NCBI GenBank assembly: GCA_016780665.1
Contig: JADHLM010000003.1
Location: 1 to 33,080, forward strand
Length of the DNA stretch: 33,080 nt
From: Hyphomicrobiales bacterium
GTDB taxonomy: Bacteria > Pseudomonadota > Alphaproteobacteria > Rhizobiales > TMED25
Direction of reading: 5' to 3'
Shown: piece after piece, positions 6,993 through 14,060 of the stretch
How positions within the stretch are numbered: position 1 is the first letter of the stretch
Layout: every line of letters begins with the position of its first letter
Notes under the pieces: generated by a model
Seen by the model: only the letters and a program-made list of their open reading frames with translations
Told to the model about the DNA's origin: nothing
The model's database searches: none
Made by a program: the position numbers and the translations under genes

Positions 6993-7010
6993 AAGAAGAA
7001 AAGAAAAGTT

Positions 7011-7039
7011 ACTAGTGGAACAGAGATTGTTCCACTAGT
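7011..7039 (-). terminator. Terminator downstream of proteorhodopsin
   Basis: Perfect 12-bp stem ACTAGTGGAACA / TGTTCCACTAGT with 5-nt loop; followed on the minus strand by AACTTTTCTTTTCTT; sits 8 nt past the proteorhodopsin stop. Confidence 0.8.
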
Positions 7040-7047
7040 GTTTTAAT

Positions 7048-7737
7048 TCATTTTGACTCAGATGTTGCAGCAGCCCAAATTACAACACCGAATGCGATTT
7101 TGTTAACAAAATCAGCTAGGTTGTAAATAAGGTTCAGTGAGTCGGCACTTCCTGCTCCGACATACCCGATTACGTAGCCTATAGGATAAATAGCCCAACC
7201 AACCGTAACAATAATCCTTAATGCATTAAATGCTTTTTGGGATGCTGGAGTTCCCTCGCTTGCACTTATTTTACTTGCTTCACCTACGAAAATTTCATAG
7301 ATGATATAAATCCATGCAAGCATTCCAATAATAAATGCCAACCATACATTCATTGATCCAATTTCACCCAGATATCCTGCAATTAGCATAATAACGGATG
7401 CACTTAGCAATCTCCAAAATAATGATGCAGATACAACAGCAATTGCTGCAAGAATTAGATAAAATTCAACAATCTGTAATGGAACTGTTAAAAGCCAATC
7501 AACGTATCTGAATACAACTGGTGACTCACCTGTGGTAACCCATACATCACGCATATAAAAATAGTGAATTGCCGCAATACCAGTAACCATTGCAGCTACA
7601 GTTAGAGATGTCTTCCATTTCCCTACTGCTCTATCTCTTTCAACCCAGAAAAAGAAAGTGGCAGCGACCATCGCGGCTGAAATTATCCAAAAGCTAACAC
7701 CTACTAAATCTGAAGGATTGAGTTGTCCTGTTGTCAT
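7048..7737 (-). CDS. Proteorhodopsin, predicted light-driven proton pump, blue-tuned
   Basis: RYVDWLLTVPLQIVEFYLIL (Asp97/Thr101/Gln105/Glu108 in green-PR numbering), His75 in AAIHYF, Schiff-base Lys in LADFVNKIAFG. Confidence 0.98.
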   Translation of the reverse strand: MTTGQLNPSDLVGVSFWIISAAMVAATFFFWVERDRAVGKWKTSLTVAAMVTGIAAIHYFYMRDVWVTTGESPVVFRYVDWLLTVPLQIVEFYLILAAIAVVSASLFWRLLSASVIMLIAGYLGEIGSMNVWLAFIIGMLAWIYIIYEIFVGEASKISASEGTPASQKAFNALRIIVTVGWAIYPIGYVIGYVGAGSADSLNLIYNLADFVNKIAFGVVIWAAATSESK

Positions 7738-7783
7738 AGTATTCTCCCTTAAAATTTACTATATAACTCCTACTCAAATACAT

Positions 7784-7812
7784 AGAATATTTGAAAAAGA
7801 TTACAAAAACAA
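7784..7812 (-). promoter_or_regulatory. Candidate sigma70 promoter for proteorhodopsin
   Basis: Minus-strand TTGTTT-N17-TATTCT, with AAGGGAGAA RBS just before the ATG at 7737. Confidence 0.4.
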
Positions 7813-7855
7813 TAATTTTTTATAAATTATCAATTATTTGTCTGCTGTAATTGAT

Positions 7856-9298
7856 TTAATCACCCTTTAATATTGGAATCTGATAAGTAAATTCATCTAC
7901 CAAATGATAGCCGTCTAATGGCTCGAAATGATGCCTCTTTAGGACGTAATTTGGACTTACGACTCTGTAAGCAGAAATCTGTTTAGAAATATAAACGGCC
8001 TTTTCCCAAAAATCATCATCCCCAATAACGATAATAGTTTGTATTTTTTCTATTCCTGCGTGTGTTATTTTATTGTTAATATCAGATAATCTGTTGATCA
8101 AAAGATCTTCACTATTCATATGAACAAACTCAAGAAAATTACTCCTCGAATGAATGTTTAAGTCTAAATCCGATGGAGCATCATCAAAAATAGATAGATT
8201 TTCACTACTGATAATTGAAATAACGTTACCATAAATCTTTGACTTATAAACCTTAGAACCATTATCAGTAGCGCGATTTAATACCCTGTCTAACTTAAAT
8301 AAGTCAAACTCATTTAACGCTGAGTTTTTAGAGTCGTATATTGCTTCGAGCCTTTTAACTAACATTGTATAAAATTCATCGTGCCTGGTTGTTACGCAGC
8401 TTTGCCCCTGGCAAATCACATATGCTTCCGTCGGTGAACTGCATAATTGTTGACCTAATACTGATATAGACTTCGCCACTTCTCCTGACACGATATCTTG
8501 ATTTTTATTTAAATATTCTTCCTGTATTAATAAAATGCCAGTTAGTGCTTCCATATTTATAATATTTGGCCTATGTGAATTTTTTCTTACTGCTTGGTAA
8601 TAATATTCATTAGCTTCTCTGCCCCCCCAAATATTGATAACATCCCATGGTACAACATTTAATAATTGATCTAGTTCTAACTTTTGCATTTCAATTTGAT
8701 GGTCAAGATTTGTAAAATATATTGGAGTGCCATCGTCAAAGGGAAGAGAACTAAAAAGTTCTGTTATAGCAACTTGATGTAATTTTGGTAATTGAATAAC
8801 AGTCACATTCCCACAAAGAAAAGACAGTATACTGGCAGTAATTACTGGTAAAATAGTGTTTGAACTGCCAACTATTAAAATTAGACCCTTGGGTGATATG
8901 ACATATTCATAATTATCTGAAAGTCTCCGATTTACAGAGAGACATTCACTGTCATAAGAATTTGAAAAAGAATTACTCGGATTTTGAAAAATATTTTTTA
9001 TGGTTTCCATAGAAAATAACTCTTTGAGCAGATTAATCTCAATTTTTACTCCATTCTCTGGATATCCAAATTCAGTCATTCTATGAAAGAATTTATTTTC
9101 AACATCTTTCCAATGCTTAGTCTTAATATAATTACTGATTTTTTCTAGTTCTGCTAACCTATCTTGCAAACTCTTTTTTTTCTGTCGTGATAATTTATCA
9201 GCAAACTCCGTGAGCCATGGATATTTTTTATATAAGTTGGCCTCAACATTGCTATTATTATCATTTTTAAACCTAGAAAAAAATCTAATCATCCACAC
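7856..9298 (-). CDS. LuxC-like acyl-CoA reductase (fatty-acid reductase component)
   Basis: LIVGSSNTILPVITASILSFLCGN nucleotide-binding region and GQQLCSSP catalytic Cys motif as in LuxC; paired with a LuxE-like gene. Confidence 0.8.
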   Translation of the reverse strand: MWMIRFFSRFKNDNNSNVEANLYKKYPWLTEFADKLSRQKKKSLQDRLAELEKISNYIKTKHWKDVENKFFHRMTEFGYPENGVKIEINLLKELFSMETIKNIFQNPSNSFSNSYDSECLSVNRRLSDNYEYVISPKGLILIVGSSNTILPVITASILSFLCGNVTVIQLPKLHQVAITELFSSLPFDDGTPIYFTNLDHQIEMQKLELDQLLNVVPWDVINIWGGREANEYYYQAVRKNSHRPNIINMEALTGILLIQEEYLNKNQDIVSGEVAKSISVLGQQLCSSPTEAYVICQGQSCVTTRHDEFYTMLVKRLEAIYDSKNSALNEFDLFKLDRVLNRATDNGSKVYKSKIYGNVISIISSENLSIFDDAPSDLDLNIHSRSNFLEFVHMNSEDLLINRLSDINNKITHAGIEKIQTIIVIGDDDFWEKAVYISKQISAYRVVSPNYVLKRHHFEPLDGYHLVDEFTYQIPILKGD

Positions 9299-10620
9299 CC
9301 TTCGCGTATTTTGAACCCTTCATCTTCTTTTGCGCGACGAGAATATATGAAGCCATTTTGGGATAAGTTTCTTTTTCCCATAACCGTATCAATTTGATTT
9401 TTATCATCAGCTGGCTTTACAAAATCTCCAGGCACAATCGCTTCAATGTAATCAAGAGTCGCAAAATTTAAATAATATAACAAGTAATCTTTACCAGGCT
9501 TCGGATTCTTGACTGGAGTCAAATCAGTAGGTGACTCTAACAAAGCAATATAAGTAAGAGGATGAGGATATTTGACCCATGCATCAGAAGTTTGAGGATC
9601 ATTAGGTAAGCCTATAAATACACACAATGACTCTGTTAGACCCAACATATCTATTACTGGAGCTGATTTTTTAACCTTACTTCCTGTAAATATTTTATCT
9701 CCAGTTGCTCTTACAACCTGATCTAATGATGTAATGTGCGAAGGTAGTCTTTTTAGACCGCCTCCAATCATTAAAACTCCATTTTCACCTAGCTGCACAG
9801 GAGGGGCACCAAGAGATAATTTCATCATCAGAGCTTTGAACCCCGTCGGCTCAATGAACATCTTATATAAGCCAACTCCGCTAGCAATAAAGTATTTTGT
9901 ACTATTTTTGCTCTGAAAAAACTTCCTCATTTCTTTTATATTTGGGCCTATTCTTTGCCAAATGGTGGAGTCTTTAGGACCTTTGTTAACTTTTGCTCCA
10001 AAAGAGACTGACAAACCTCTGTGCCTCAGAAAATCTGAACCAATTGCAGCAAAAGCAAGAAAGTCTGTCATTTCTGGTGCCATGTGAAATAAACACTCTC
10101 CATCATTTATCTCCTTACCAATGGACCAATCAATCAAATTACCATTAATTTTTCTAGATAAATCTAATGATAGATTTGATCTATATACATTAACGGGCCC
10201 TATTGTTCCCAATGTTGTGCCACTTGACATGAAGCTCATGCCAAAGGATTTATCTGAAAAATGTTCAATTAAGCGTGACTTCTGGCCATCTCCTCTCAAA
10301 TCATCGGAGTGGATTCTTAATTTTATAAGATCATGTAATTTTATATCTTTCTTGAGTTTCCCATCATTATTTTCAGCTAAGCCACGGCTAAAAAATAACT
10401 TTTTGTAATAACCATTTTTATCATGACGTAAAAAAAACTCTAGATATGGATATATTAAACTATTCTGCAACCTCTCAGTATCATTTGGAGAGAAATCAGT
10501 CATAATGTTTTTATTAGACAGTACTTCCTGAAGTTTTTTTACATAGGGATCATCAATAACAAATGATTTTTCTATTGATAGATCTGCAGGCATTCCATGC
10601 CCATTAAAAGCTCCTATCAT
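9289..10620 (-). CDS. LuxE-like acyl-protein synthetase
   Basis: MSFMSSGTTLGTIGPVN adenylate-forming motif; LuxE-family body; C-terminal Cys (IREGCG) as expected for the acyl-carrying arm; overlaps the LuxC-like gene by 10 nt. Confidence 0.8.
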   Translation of the reverse strand: MIGAFNGHGMPADLSIEKSFVIDDPYVKKLQEVLSNKNIMTDFSPNDTERLQNSLIYPYLEFFLRHDKNGYYKKLFFSRGLAENNDGKLKKDIKLHDLIKLRIHSDDLRGDGQKSRLIEHFSDKSFGMSFMSSGTTLGTIGPVNVYRSNLSLDLSRKINGNLIDWSIGKEINDGECLFHMAPEMTDFLAFAAIGSDFLRHRGLSVSFGAKVNKGPKDSTIWQRIGPNIKEMRKFFQSKNSTKYFIASGVGLYKMFIEPTGFKALMMKLSLGAPPVQLGENGVLMIGGGLKRLPSHITSLDQVVRATGDKIFTGSKVKKSAPVIDMLGLTESLCVFIGLPNDPQTSDAWVKYPHPLTYIALLESPTDLTPVKNPKPGKDYLLYYLNFATLDYIEAIVPGDFVKPADDKNQIDTVMGKRNLSQNGFIYSRRAKEDEGFKIREGCG

Positions 10621-10662
10621 TATTCAACCCCCCTATTTATAAATAATGAATATCAAATTATC

Positions 10663-11082
10663 TCATAAGAAAATCTTATCAGATAATGAATAAGTCAACA
10701 AAGAATAAGAGAGTAATTTAAATACTGATGCATACATTGCTTCTGGAGATACCTTATATTTTCCTCTCCCATATGTCATGGCAATATCAAAATAGGATAA
10801 AGTGTTATAAATTGTACTAGCTCCAAATACGACGATGCCAAAAACGAAAAAAGCCCAGTTACCAGAAGGCCCAAAAATTAGTATTAAAAATGCAACCGTT
10901 GCCTCTGCTGTTGGCCAACATGCGGCAAATCTTGCGATTAATGCTGCAGACTCATCGATATTATACCTTGCTAAAACTTTTTTTGTTTCCCAAAGTTGGA
11001 CTGCTGCATAAAACCCAGGTGTAAATATACAAGCAAAAATAAACAATACTAATGTGTATATGTTGTTAAAATTCTCTACCAT
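10663..11082 (-). CDS. Hypothetical ~4-TM membrane protein
   Basis: Hydrophobic segments LVLFIFACIFTPGFYAA, ATVAFLILIF, WAFFVFGIVVFGAS, VFKLLSYSLLTYS; no family recognised. Confidence 0.65.
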   Translation of the reverse strand: MVENFNNIYTLVLFIFACIFTPGFYAAVQLWETKKVLARYNIDESAALIARFAACWPTAEATVAFLILIFGPSGNWAFFVFGIVVFGASTIYNTLSYFDIAMTYGRGKYKVSPEAMYASVFKLLSYSLLTYSLSDKIFL

Positions 11083-11096
11083 CTAAAATCCTCCCT

Positions 11097-11783
11097 CTAT
11101 TCTTTATTTGTTACAACATCAACTAACACTGCGATTATTAGATTTAATATTGTAATTGAACCAATTGCAATAAAACTATAAAAATAAATCCAAGCCCACC
11201 AAAATATTTCTTGCATTGGTAACATAACAGTTTCCCAACTGGATAGAGTTAGAACTTGAAAAAGAGTTATCATCGCAACGCCCAAATCACCCCAACGACC
11301 TGGGTCTGAAGTAGCGAATAAAATACTACCAATTGATGCATAAACATAAATTATAATAAACAGCAACAATGAAACATAAAAGACCCTTTTTAATGACTTT
11401 AGTAATGACTCAATGAGTTCCTTCAATTCGGGAATTGCTGAGATTAGTCTTAATACCCGAAAAATTCTTAACAACCTTAGAACAAGTATTGAGGAGTTTG
11501 GTCCTACAGGAATAATTGAGGCTATTACTATTATCGTATCAAATATATTCCATCCATCCTTAAAGAAATGTAACTTCCTTTTTTCTGCAAAAAATCGTAT
11601 CGAAATCTCTACCACAAAAAAAAGAGTTATCAATACATCCAAGGAATGAAGAATAAATAGAATACTTGGTGGTATATTATATGTGGATGCACCAACTAAA
11701 AGTGCAGATAATATAATGGCGAATACAACAATGGCCTGAAAAAGCCTGTGATCTTTGATATTTTTAAATAAGTTTCTGTTCAT
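11097..11783 (-). CDS. Single-domain voltage-gated cation channel (NaChBac-like ion transporter family)
   Basis: S4 LVLRLLRIFRVLRLIS with four regularly spaced Arg; pore FQVLTLSSWETVMLP; S6 ITILNLIIAVLVDVV. Start at internal ATG 11783 gives ATGA overlap with cutA (track start 11813). Confidence 0.88.
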   Translation of the reverse strand: MNRNLFKNIKDHRLFQAIVVFAIILSALLVGASTYNIPPSILFILHSLDVLITLFFVVEISIRFFAEKRKLHFFKDGWNIFDTIIVIASIIPVGPNSSILVLRLLRIFRVLRLISAIPELKELIESLLKSLKRVFYVSLLLFIIIYVYASIGSILFATSDPGRWGDLGVAMITLFQVLTLSSWETVMLPMQEIFWWAWIYFYSFIAIGSITILNLIIAVLVDVVTNKE

Positions 11784-12103
11784 GTCTCTGTTGTGATTGA
11801 TTTCAAGAGCCAATTTGCATAATCATCATCGATTTGAGTAATAGGTAACCCAATAATGCACGGTATCTCATATGAATGAAACTTTTTTATTTGTTTTTTA
11901 ATTTCAGTAAAATTCTTTTCAATTGCTTTCATAATGATTGTACATTCTTCATCTTGGGCAATCTTATTGTCCCATTTATATAAAGAGATCATTGAAGGGT
12001 ATATGTTTGAACAAGCAATTAAATTATTTTCAAGTAAAATTTCAGATATGCGTTTTGCTTCATTCAATGAAGAACATGTGGTGTAGATTAGAAAAAATTT
12101 CAT
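11780..12103 (-). CDS. cutA: Divalent-cation tolerance protein CutA
   Basis: IYTTCSSLNEAKRISEILLENNLIACSNIYP...YKWDNKIAQDEECTIIMKA: CutA1 signature. Confidence 0.93.
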   Translation of the reverse strand: MKFFLIYTTCSSLNEAKRISEILLENNLIACSNIYPSMISLYKWDNKIAQDEECTIIMKAIEKNFTEIKKQIKKFHSYEIPCIIGLPITQIDDDYANWLLKSITTET

Positions 12104-12759
12104 TTCTTAAACCTCTTAATGAATAGCAAAACCAAACTATATAATAATATTGCATTTAATATATGCCAGATCAAGTGCGTTCCAAATGGTATATAGGAAC
12201 AAGCAAAAGCATCGATTTGTCTAAATGTTAGAGAAATTATAAAGATAATTGATGCAATAAATAGTCCTCTTGAGATTTCAAGTTCTTGTTTCACAAGTGA
12301 TATAGCTGATATGAAAAGCATGGCAAATAGCGCTGTTAAATAGGATGATATTTCCTCCACACCAGCATACCCAAGCAAGATATTCAAACTCAAAAAAATA
12401 ATAAGTGCAACAACTGAAAGTAAATTAGTTTGTTCAAGATAAAATCTAACTGCGATGTAAAGATAGAAAAGTATAAATATCATTATTGGTAATGTATCTG
12501 CAAACGCAGACCACAAATTACCAAATGCATGAAATAAGAAGCTGCCTAAGCCAATTAGTAAGATTAAATAGGTTAATATAGTTGAGTATCTTTTATGAGA
12601 CTTATCGCTAAAAGATACATCTTTTAATTTCCGAAGAAGAATATAAAAAGCGATAATGAAAGCGATATTGGATAAAAAATTAATGGGTTCTGCAAATAGG
12701 TCTGAAGATACCCTTTCACAATAAATATCTATGCTTGTATTGAGGTTAATTGATGACAC
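12100..12759 (-). CDS. Ceramidase-like (CREST superfamily) integral membrane hydrolase
   Basis: DIYCERVSSDLFAEPINFLSNIAFI, GLGSFLFHAFGNLWSAFADTLPI, GTHLIWHILNA: conserved Ser/His/Asp/HxxxH pattern, 7 TM. Confidence 0.82.
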   Translation of the reverse strand: MSSINLNTSIDIYCERVSSDLFAEPINFLSNIAFIIAFYILLRKLKDVSFSDKSHKRYSTILTYLILLIGLGSFLFHAFGNLWSAFADTLPIMIFILFYLYIAVRFYLEQTNLLSVVALIIFLSLNILLGYAGVEEISSYLTALFAMLFISAISLVKQELEISRGLFIASIIFIISLTFRQIDAFACSYIPFGTHLIWHILNAILLYSLVLLFIKRFKK

Positions 12760-12766
12760 TAATTAA

Positions 12767-13144
12767 CTATGCACTTAATTCTGTGATTTTTTCTTTTGCT
12801 TCTCTGAGCTGTTTCATAATATTTCTCATTCTTGGCATCATATTATTTTCCCAATATTTTAACATCTCAATATTATCTCTGGTTATATTATAAACACCAG
12901 AAAAATGCTCAATTAATTCATCAGAGCCTGCAAGAAATATACCATCTAATGACTCGACGGTTGGAAAGCTTGCTTTTTGGCCTGACTTTTCGAGAATATA
13001 CATCGTTATTTCCTCATATGACTCTTCATCAGCATGCGCAACGTGTAATTCAAAATCAACTAATTTATTTATTTCATTGAGATACACAATAAACTTGTAG
13101 GAAAATGGGCATCCTGCTTTAACGAATAATTTATTTTTGTTCAT
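12767..13144 (-). CDS. Glutaredoxin/GST-N-like thioredoxin-fold protein
   Basis: KLFVKAGCPFSYKFIVYLNE (CPFS) and TVESLDGIFLAGSDELIEHF. Confidence 0.6.
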   Translation of the reverse strand: MNKNKLFVKAGCPFSYKFIVYLNEINKLVDFELHVAHADEESYEEITMYILEKSGQKASFPTVESLDGIFLAGSDELIEHFSGVYNITRDNIEMLKYWENNMMPRMRNIMKQLREAKEKITELSA

Positions 13145-13157
13145 TTAATTCTCGCTT

Positions 13158-14060
13158 CTATTTTATAAAATTTCCTGTATTTAAATCTTGCATAGCTTGG
13201 ATAAGTTCTTCTCTTGAATTCATGACAATTGGTCCGTGCCATGCTATTGGCTCTCTAATTGGTTTTCCAGATACAAGTAGAAATCTTACCCCTTCATCAA
13301 AAGTGTGCAATACAACATTTTCTCCTGGATCAAAATAAATTAGAGTCTTATTCCCCGAGGAGTCCCTAATATTGAATTCTTCGCCATTAAATTCCTTTTC
13401 TACTCTGATACCGACAGGATCTGAAGCATATTGAAAATGAGCTGAACCGCTAAATACGTACGCAAATGTACTTTTATAAGTATCAATTTTCAGTAATTTA
13501 TTCGTATTTGGTGGCACATAGACATCTAAAAACTGAGGCTCAGCAGCTATTCCATCTACAGGTCCCAATATCCCTCTGTAATCGCCAACTACAACTTTAA
13601 TTTTTGACCCGTCATCATCTTCAACTATTGGAATCCCCGTAGTATCTATATCTTGATATCTGGGTGAAGTCATTTTTTTATCAGATGGCAAATTAGCCCA
13701 TAATTGAAATCCATGCATCTGTCCAATCTCATTACCTTGAGGCATCTCTTGGTGCATGATCCCTGAACCAGCAGTCATCCATTGCACATCGCCGCCTGCA
13801 AGAAGTCCAGTATTACCGAGACTATCTTTATGTTCAACTGTTCCTTCAAGCACATATGTAATTGTTTCAATTCCTCTATGCGGATGCCATGGAAATCCCG
13901 CCTTATATTTTTCTGGGTCTTCATTTCTAAAATCATCTAATAACAAAAATGGATCAAATTTTTCTGGGTCTGCAAAACCAAATACTCTGTCAAGTGATAC
14001 ACCTGCTCCTTCCAGAACAGATTTTGGATTTGATTTAGTTGTGATTGGCCTAAATGACAT
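13158..14060 (-). CDS. Pirin family protein
   Basis: DPFLLLDDF...FPWHPHRGIETITYVLEGTVEHKDSLGN...WMTAGSGIMHQEMP. Confidence 0.95.
   Translation of the reverse strand: MSFRPITTKSNPKSVLEGAGVSLDRVFGFADPEKFDPFLLLDDFRNEDPEKYKAGFPWHPHRGIETITYVLEGTVEHKDSLGNTGLLAGGDVQWMTAGSGIMHQEMPQGNEIGQMHGFQLWANLPSDKKMTSPRYQDIDTTGIPIVEDDDGSKIKVVVGDYRGILGPVDGIAAEPQFLDVYVPPNTNKLLKIDTYKSTFAYVFSGSAHFQYASDPVGIRVEKEFNGEEFNIRDSSGNKTLIYFDPGENVVLHTFDEGVRFLLVSGKPIREPIAWHGPIVMNSREELIQAMQDLNTGNFIK

Follow-up and report, generated by a model that had tools for sequence, protein, structure and literature searches.

A cassette of three genes lies between an ion-channel gene and a proteorhodopsin gene on the minus strand of the window, that is, the whole 33,080-nucleotide stretch of Hyphomicrobiales contig JADHLM010000003.1 that was analyzed (Table 1). 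The cassette starts with a gene for a 139-residue membrane protein and continues with genes for a LuxE-like and a LuxC-like protein, whose intact open reading frames (ORFs) overlap by 10 bases. A first-pass annotation had placed the latter two ORFs at 7856-10620; these coordinates were borne out, and the unit was found to reach upstream of the LuxE-like gene and take in the gene for the 139-residue protein. The adjacent retinal-binding protein that it had noted is a proteorhodopsin of the Bac_rhodopsin family with the retinal lysine kept. It had also stated that luxA, luxB and luxD are missing from the window, and none of the three turned up in the Pfam scan of window ORFs, including the luxA and luxB by whose proximity a lux bioluminescence operon is recognized. 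Since the cassette occurs in two separate assemblies and its deletion has left a scar in another genome, an artifact is very unlikely.

TABLE 1 Features of the cassette and its surroundings, in window coordinates
Feature	Position	Strand	Basis or remark
Terminator-like strong hairpin, 12- to 14-pair stem	7010..7040		Just past the rhodopsin stop codon
Proteorhodopsin, 229 aa	7048..7737	-	PF01036, 169.7 bits; motifs
luxC-rhodopsin gap, 118 nt, with promoter-like block TTGTTTTT...TATTCTATG	7738..7855	-	Similar block in cassette-free relatives
LuxC-like acyl reductase (family assignment supported), 480 aa	7856..9298	-	PF05893, 31.7 bits, and whole-length alignment
TGGTAGA, second copy, near luxC 3' end	7896..7902	-	Other edge of the G004 deletion
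LuxE-like putative adenylating enzyme (remote homologue at most), 443 aa	9289..10620	-	Motifs, gene order, marginal profile scores
Hydrophobic membrane protein, 139 aa, first cassette gene	10663..11082	-	Hydropathy; no Pfam match
TGGTAGA, 7-bp direct repeat, start of the 139-aa gene	11075..11081	-	One edge of the G004 deletion
Voltage-gated-type ion channel (Ion_trans)	11097..11813	-	PF00520, 151.5 bits; synteny

The LuxC-like protein scored above the Pfam cut-off for LuxC (31.7 versus 21 bits). Because weak PF05893 matches are common among aldehyde dehydrogenases, mostly over positions 79 to 220 only, the protein was aligned with LuxC-family members. Along a whole-length alignment it shared with them the catalytic QxxCSSP motif, an IWGG segment and a DG motif at the C terminus. 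Cys286, within the GQQLCSSP motif that the first-pass annotation had picked out, aligned with the conserved cysteine of the family, and the C-terminal segment DGYHLVDEFT was likewise matched. Membership in the LuxC family is thus supported by sequence over the whole length of the protein. Between the window's genome (G000, 76% complete) and the MAG MED766 (G011, 99% complete), the luxC genes differ by 13 substitutions, 2 nonsynonymous and 11 synonymous (dN/dS of 0.04).

The LuxE-like protein had no Pfam, NCBIfam or PHROGs match, and none in Pfam even at an E value of up to 10, so it is a remote LuxE homologue at most; six of six control LuxE proteins matched PF04443. Its motifs nevertheless follow the order found in LuxE: SSGTT (residues 132 to 136), GGxK, GLTE(S) and a C-terminal cysteine. 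That cysteine, Cys442 of 443 in the terminus IREGCG, aligns with the RGC of LuxE, so both features on which the first-pass annotation had relied, SSGTT and the penultimate cysteine, are present. A profile-profile comparison (hhalign) with LuxE gave an E value of 0.0015, above 60 shuffled copies and at the level of the genus's genuine AMP-binding enzymes; hmmsearch with the LuxE profile was not significant (E value of about 0.5 to 1). The gene immediately precedes luxC, an order seen in other LuxE-LuxC pairs, and overlaps it as in several genuine pairs. Between G000 and G011 it carries 2 nonsynonymous and 5 synonymous changes. We call the product LuxE-like on the strength of its motifs, of the gene order and of profile scores that are marginal and fall below every curated threshold. 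Of the pair originally proposed, the LuxC half passed the Pfam cut-off and the LuxE half had no family match. The two AlphaFold2 models, one for each protein of the pair, had pLDDT values of 30 and 34, too low for comparison of folds or pockets.

In its two-enzyme order and LuxC catalytic cysteine, the cassette resembles the LuxC-LuxE system of luminous bacteria (LuxE of PDB 7xc6), and the LuxE-like protein shares with LuxE a cysteine near the C terminus and an SSGT-type ATP-binding motif. Unlike the lux system, the window has no luxA, luxB or luxD. The LuxE-like protein is too divergent for PF04443, is some 70 to 85 residues longer than the LuxEs compared (359 to 373 residues) and, unlike them, stops immediately past Cys-Gly.

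We read the cassette as a two-enzyme carboxylic acid reductase of LuxE-LuxC-like type that operates without luciferase, its substrate being most likely a long-chain fatty acid, and we give this reading about an even chance. What the analysis shows directly is that the genes are intact, with conserved catalytic residues and gene order, and, as described below, that the cassette is restricted to one clade and dispensable; reaction, direction and substrate we infer from the enzyme families. The LuxE-like enzyme would use ATP to adenylate a hydrophobic carboxylic acid and would hold the acyl group on Cys442 as a thioester. From there the acyl group would pass to Cys286 of the LuxC-like partner, to be reduced by that enzyme to the aldehyde with NADPH. 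The long-chain fatty aldehyde would then serve lipid or surface chemistry, and the 139-residue membrane protein may act as an anchor for the complex or as an exporter of the product. Against this reading, no partner that would consume fatty aldehyde was identified, and the adjacency of cassette and rhodopsin is left as a coincidence.

The 139-residue protein belongs to a hydrophobic family restricted to the genus, with endings DKIYL, DKIFL or DKIYI (10663-11082; L136-L144, L147-L153). Members have no Pfam match. A genome usually holds one or two further copies, and the distant paralogues found in the genus are 27 to 32% identical.

LuxE-LuxC pairs without luciferase occur elsewhere, in Alteromonas ponticola (L099) and in members of the class (L092 and L097), and flagellar-glycan islands of Aeromonas carry luxE and luxC without luciferase (PMC7874193). 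Like the pairs of A. ponticola and Aeromonas, the window has LuxE directly upstream of LuxC. Such pairs appear to act in polysaccharide and flagellar-glycan clusters, and the window pair might likewise modify a surface glycan or glycolipid, which we consider improbable. The pairs at L092, L097 and L099 have genes for adenylation enzymes and short-chain reductases, as well as sugar-nucleotide genes, around them, and the closest homologue outside the clade, the A. ponticola LuxC (23% identical to the window protein), sits in a polysaccharide cluster. The window cassette, in contrast, has the membrane protein and a rhodopsin as company, and among the window ORFs searched with Pfam, none near it was a glycosyltransferase, ACP or polysaccharide gene.

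The cassette was found in 2 of the 12 genus genomes compared, G000 and G011, the latter catalogued under the alphaproteobacterial label Rhodobiaceae bacterium MED766 (PAHC01000008.1). LuxC was present in 2 of 101 genomes (the window's genome and its nearest kin) and, among 399 genomes of the phylum, only in the window's own; the LuxE-like protein was likewise confined to its own genome among 385 of the class. Viral contigs, phages and plasmids yielded no relatives of the cassette. When about 85,000 species were scanned with a sequence pattern, only MED766 and one homologue, the 23%-identical Alteromonas protein, were returned; because the scan demanded one specific motif, near relatives with an altered motif could have been missed. 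Recent foreign origin was considered on compositional grounds and found unsupported, since the GC and GC3 of the cassette match those of its neighbors.

A third genome, G004, carries the scar of a 3.2-kb deletion in which the first codons of the 139-residue protein gene run into the last codons of luxC (MVDEFTYQIPLLKGD*). The deletion lies at a 7-bp repeat, TGGTAGA, whose copies are 3179 bp apart in the window. In a tree of six marker proteins, G000, G004 and G011 grouped together (support of 100), with G000 and G004 closest (81). Scar and tree indicate that the ancestor of the clade had the cassette and that G004 lost it, and deletion through the repeat indicates that the cassette is dispensable. 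Dispensability would also suit inert or decaying passenger genes inserted beside the rhodopsin by chance. We regard that explanation as very unlikely, as two genomes retain both genes intact, catalytic residues included, and nonsynonymous changes are fewer than synonymous ones, although the counts are small.

The rhodopsin has the D-T-E proton-pump triad (RYVDWLLTVPLQIVE) and the retinal lysine (FVNK), and a glutamine at the spectral-tuning position makes it a blue type by motif. The block in the gap upstream of it resembles one that precedes rhodopsin in relatives lacking the cassette. Judging from this promoter-like region and the terminator-like hairpin, the rhodopsin probably has its own transcript. 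A single operon of cassette and rhodopsin was also considered and seems doubtful in view of the rhodopsin's separate, conserved upstream region.

In most relatives the ion channel and the rhodopsin are direct neighbors; in G000 and G011 the three cassette genes stand between them. Among genus members with the syntenic locus (channel genes at 11097-11813 in the window and in L050-L052 and L054-L059; G008 falls outside this set), the channel is found immediately upstream of the proteorhodopsin or next but one to it, and this neighborhood may reflect a functional link of channel and proton pump. A gene for a ceramidase-family (PF05875) membrane hydrolase (12100-12759) is also conserved near the rhodopsin across the genus. 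When window positions 7048-14060 were compared with the G011 locus (L050), synonymous divergence was very low, at 0.007 to 0.04, in the genes of the cassette and in those for CutA, the ceramidase-like protein and pirin, and high, at 0.29, in the ion-channel gene, a contrast that suggests recombination mosaics.

Rhodopsin was present in 11 of the 12 genus genomes compared, and blh together with crtB and crtY in 7. No crtB, crtY, blh or RPE65-type oxygenase was found in G000, G004 or G011. The first-pass annotation had set a blh/crt pathway elsewhere in the genome against its idea that the pair supplies retinal, and this check, in G000 and G011, came out in favor of the idea. Six relatives (G001, G002, G005, G006, G009 and G010; L100, L102-L106) have crt-blh genes at a common site. 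In G004 that site is empty, and about 0.8 kb separates the genes on either side. Other genes occupy it in G011, G008 and the sister genus G012, and neither in G011 nor in G008 is the marker gene followed by a crt gene. G003 instead carries its crt-blh genes next to the rhodopsin, after it (L055, 10772-15046), which indicates that retinal-supply genes can cluster at the rhodopsin. Across the genus, crt-blh is an accessory island at two different sites, and rhodopsin is nearly universal. Rhodopsin with neither blh nor the cassette occurs in G004, G008 and probably G007 (73% complete). Several species of the genus look like retinal auxotrophs. The source of retinal in rhodopsin-bearing bacteria without blh is an open question (PMC7734400, PMC12422013).

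These absences, the adjoining rhodopsin and the precedent of G003 raise the possibility of retinal salvage: in a lineage that can neither make nor cleave beta-carotene, the pair would reduce retinoate or another apocarotenoid acid from seawater to all-trans-retinal for the adjacent rhodopsin. As with the crtIBY-blh genes linked to proteorhodopsin in G003, accessory genes with a possible part in retinal supply would lie beside a rhodopsin of the same genus; unlike crtIBY-blh, the enzymes are entirely different, and the putative acid reduction would replace oxidative cleavage of beta-carotene. Several observations make this rather unlikely. The cassette was acquired once, and the presence of LuxC in 2 of 5 genomes lacking blh versus 0 of 7 with blh is neither significant nor based on independent cases. 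The rhodopsin is flanked by a promoter-like region and a terminator-like hairpin of its own. The close relative G004, which has lost the cassette, retains an intact rhodopsin and has no blh, and rhodopsin occurs with neither system in G008 and in G007, the latter at 73% completeness. Literature searches gave no precedent for retinoate reduction by LuxC/LuxE, and a selection effect is at work, as adjacency is the reason the locus drew notice. It is a doubtful proposition that the cassette is a retinoate reductase bypassing beta-carotene and Blh, with which a streamlined marine bacterium runs proteorhodopsin on scavenged retinoic or apocarotenoid acids. The original interpretation is partly supported: an aldehyde-forming pair for a purpose other than bioluminescence is well supported as a reading, and the retinal option is unproven, given the rhodopsin's own promoter-like region and the relatives without either system. 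Family precedent favors a fatty acid as the substrate, and the genomic context raises retinoate as a serious minority option.

With a putative aldehyde-forming pair beside the rhodopsin and the known pathway absent, the clade provides a concrete candidate for retinal supply without blh. Luna-1 and other Actinobacteria similarly carry rhodopsin without known retinal synthesis genes, and the passages that describe them (PMC12422013, PMC7734400) mention no LuxCE-like cassette of the kind found in the window's clade. G004 offers a natural control, a relative from which the cassette has been deleted. Should the substrate prove to be a fatty acid, the cassette would still represent a highly divergent LuxE-LuxC system, limited within the scope of these searches to a single small marine clade.
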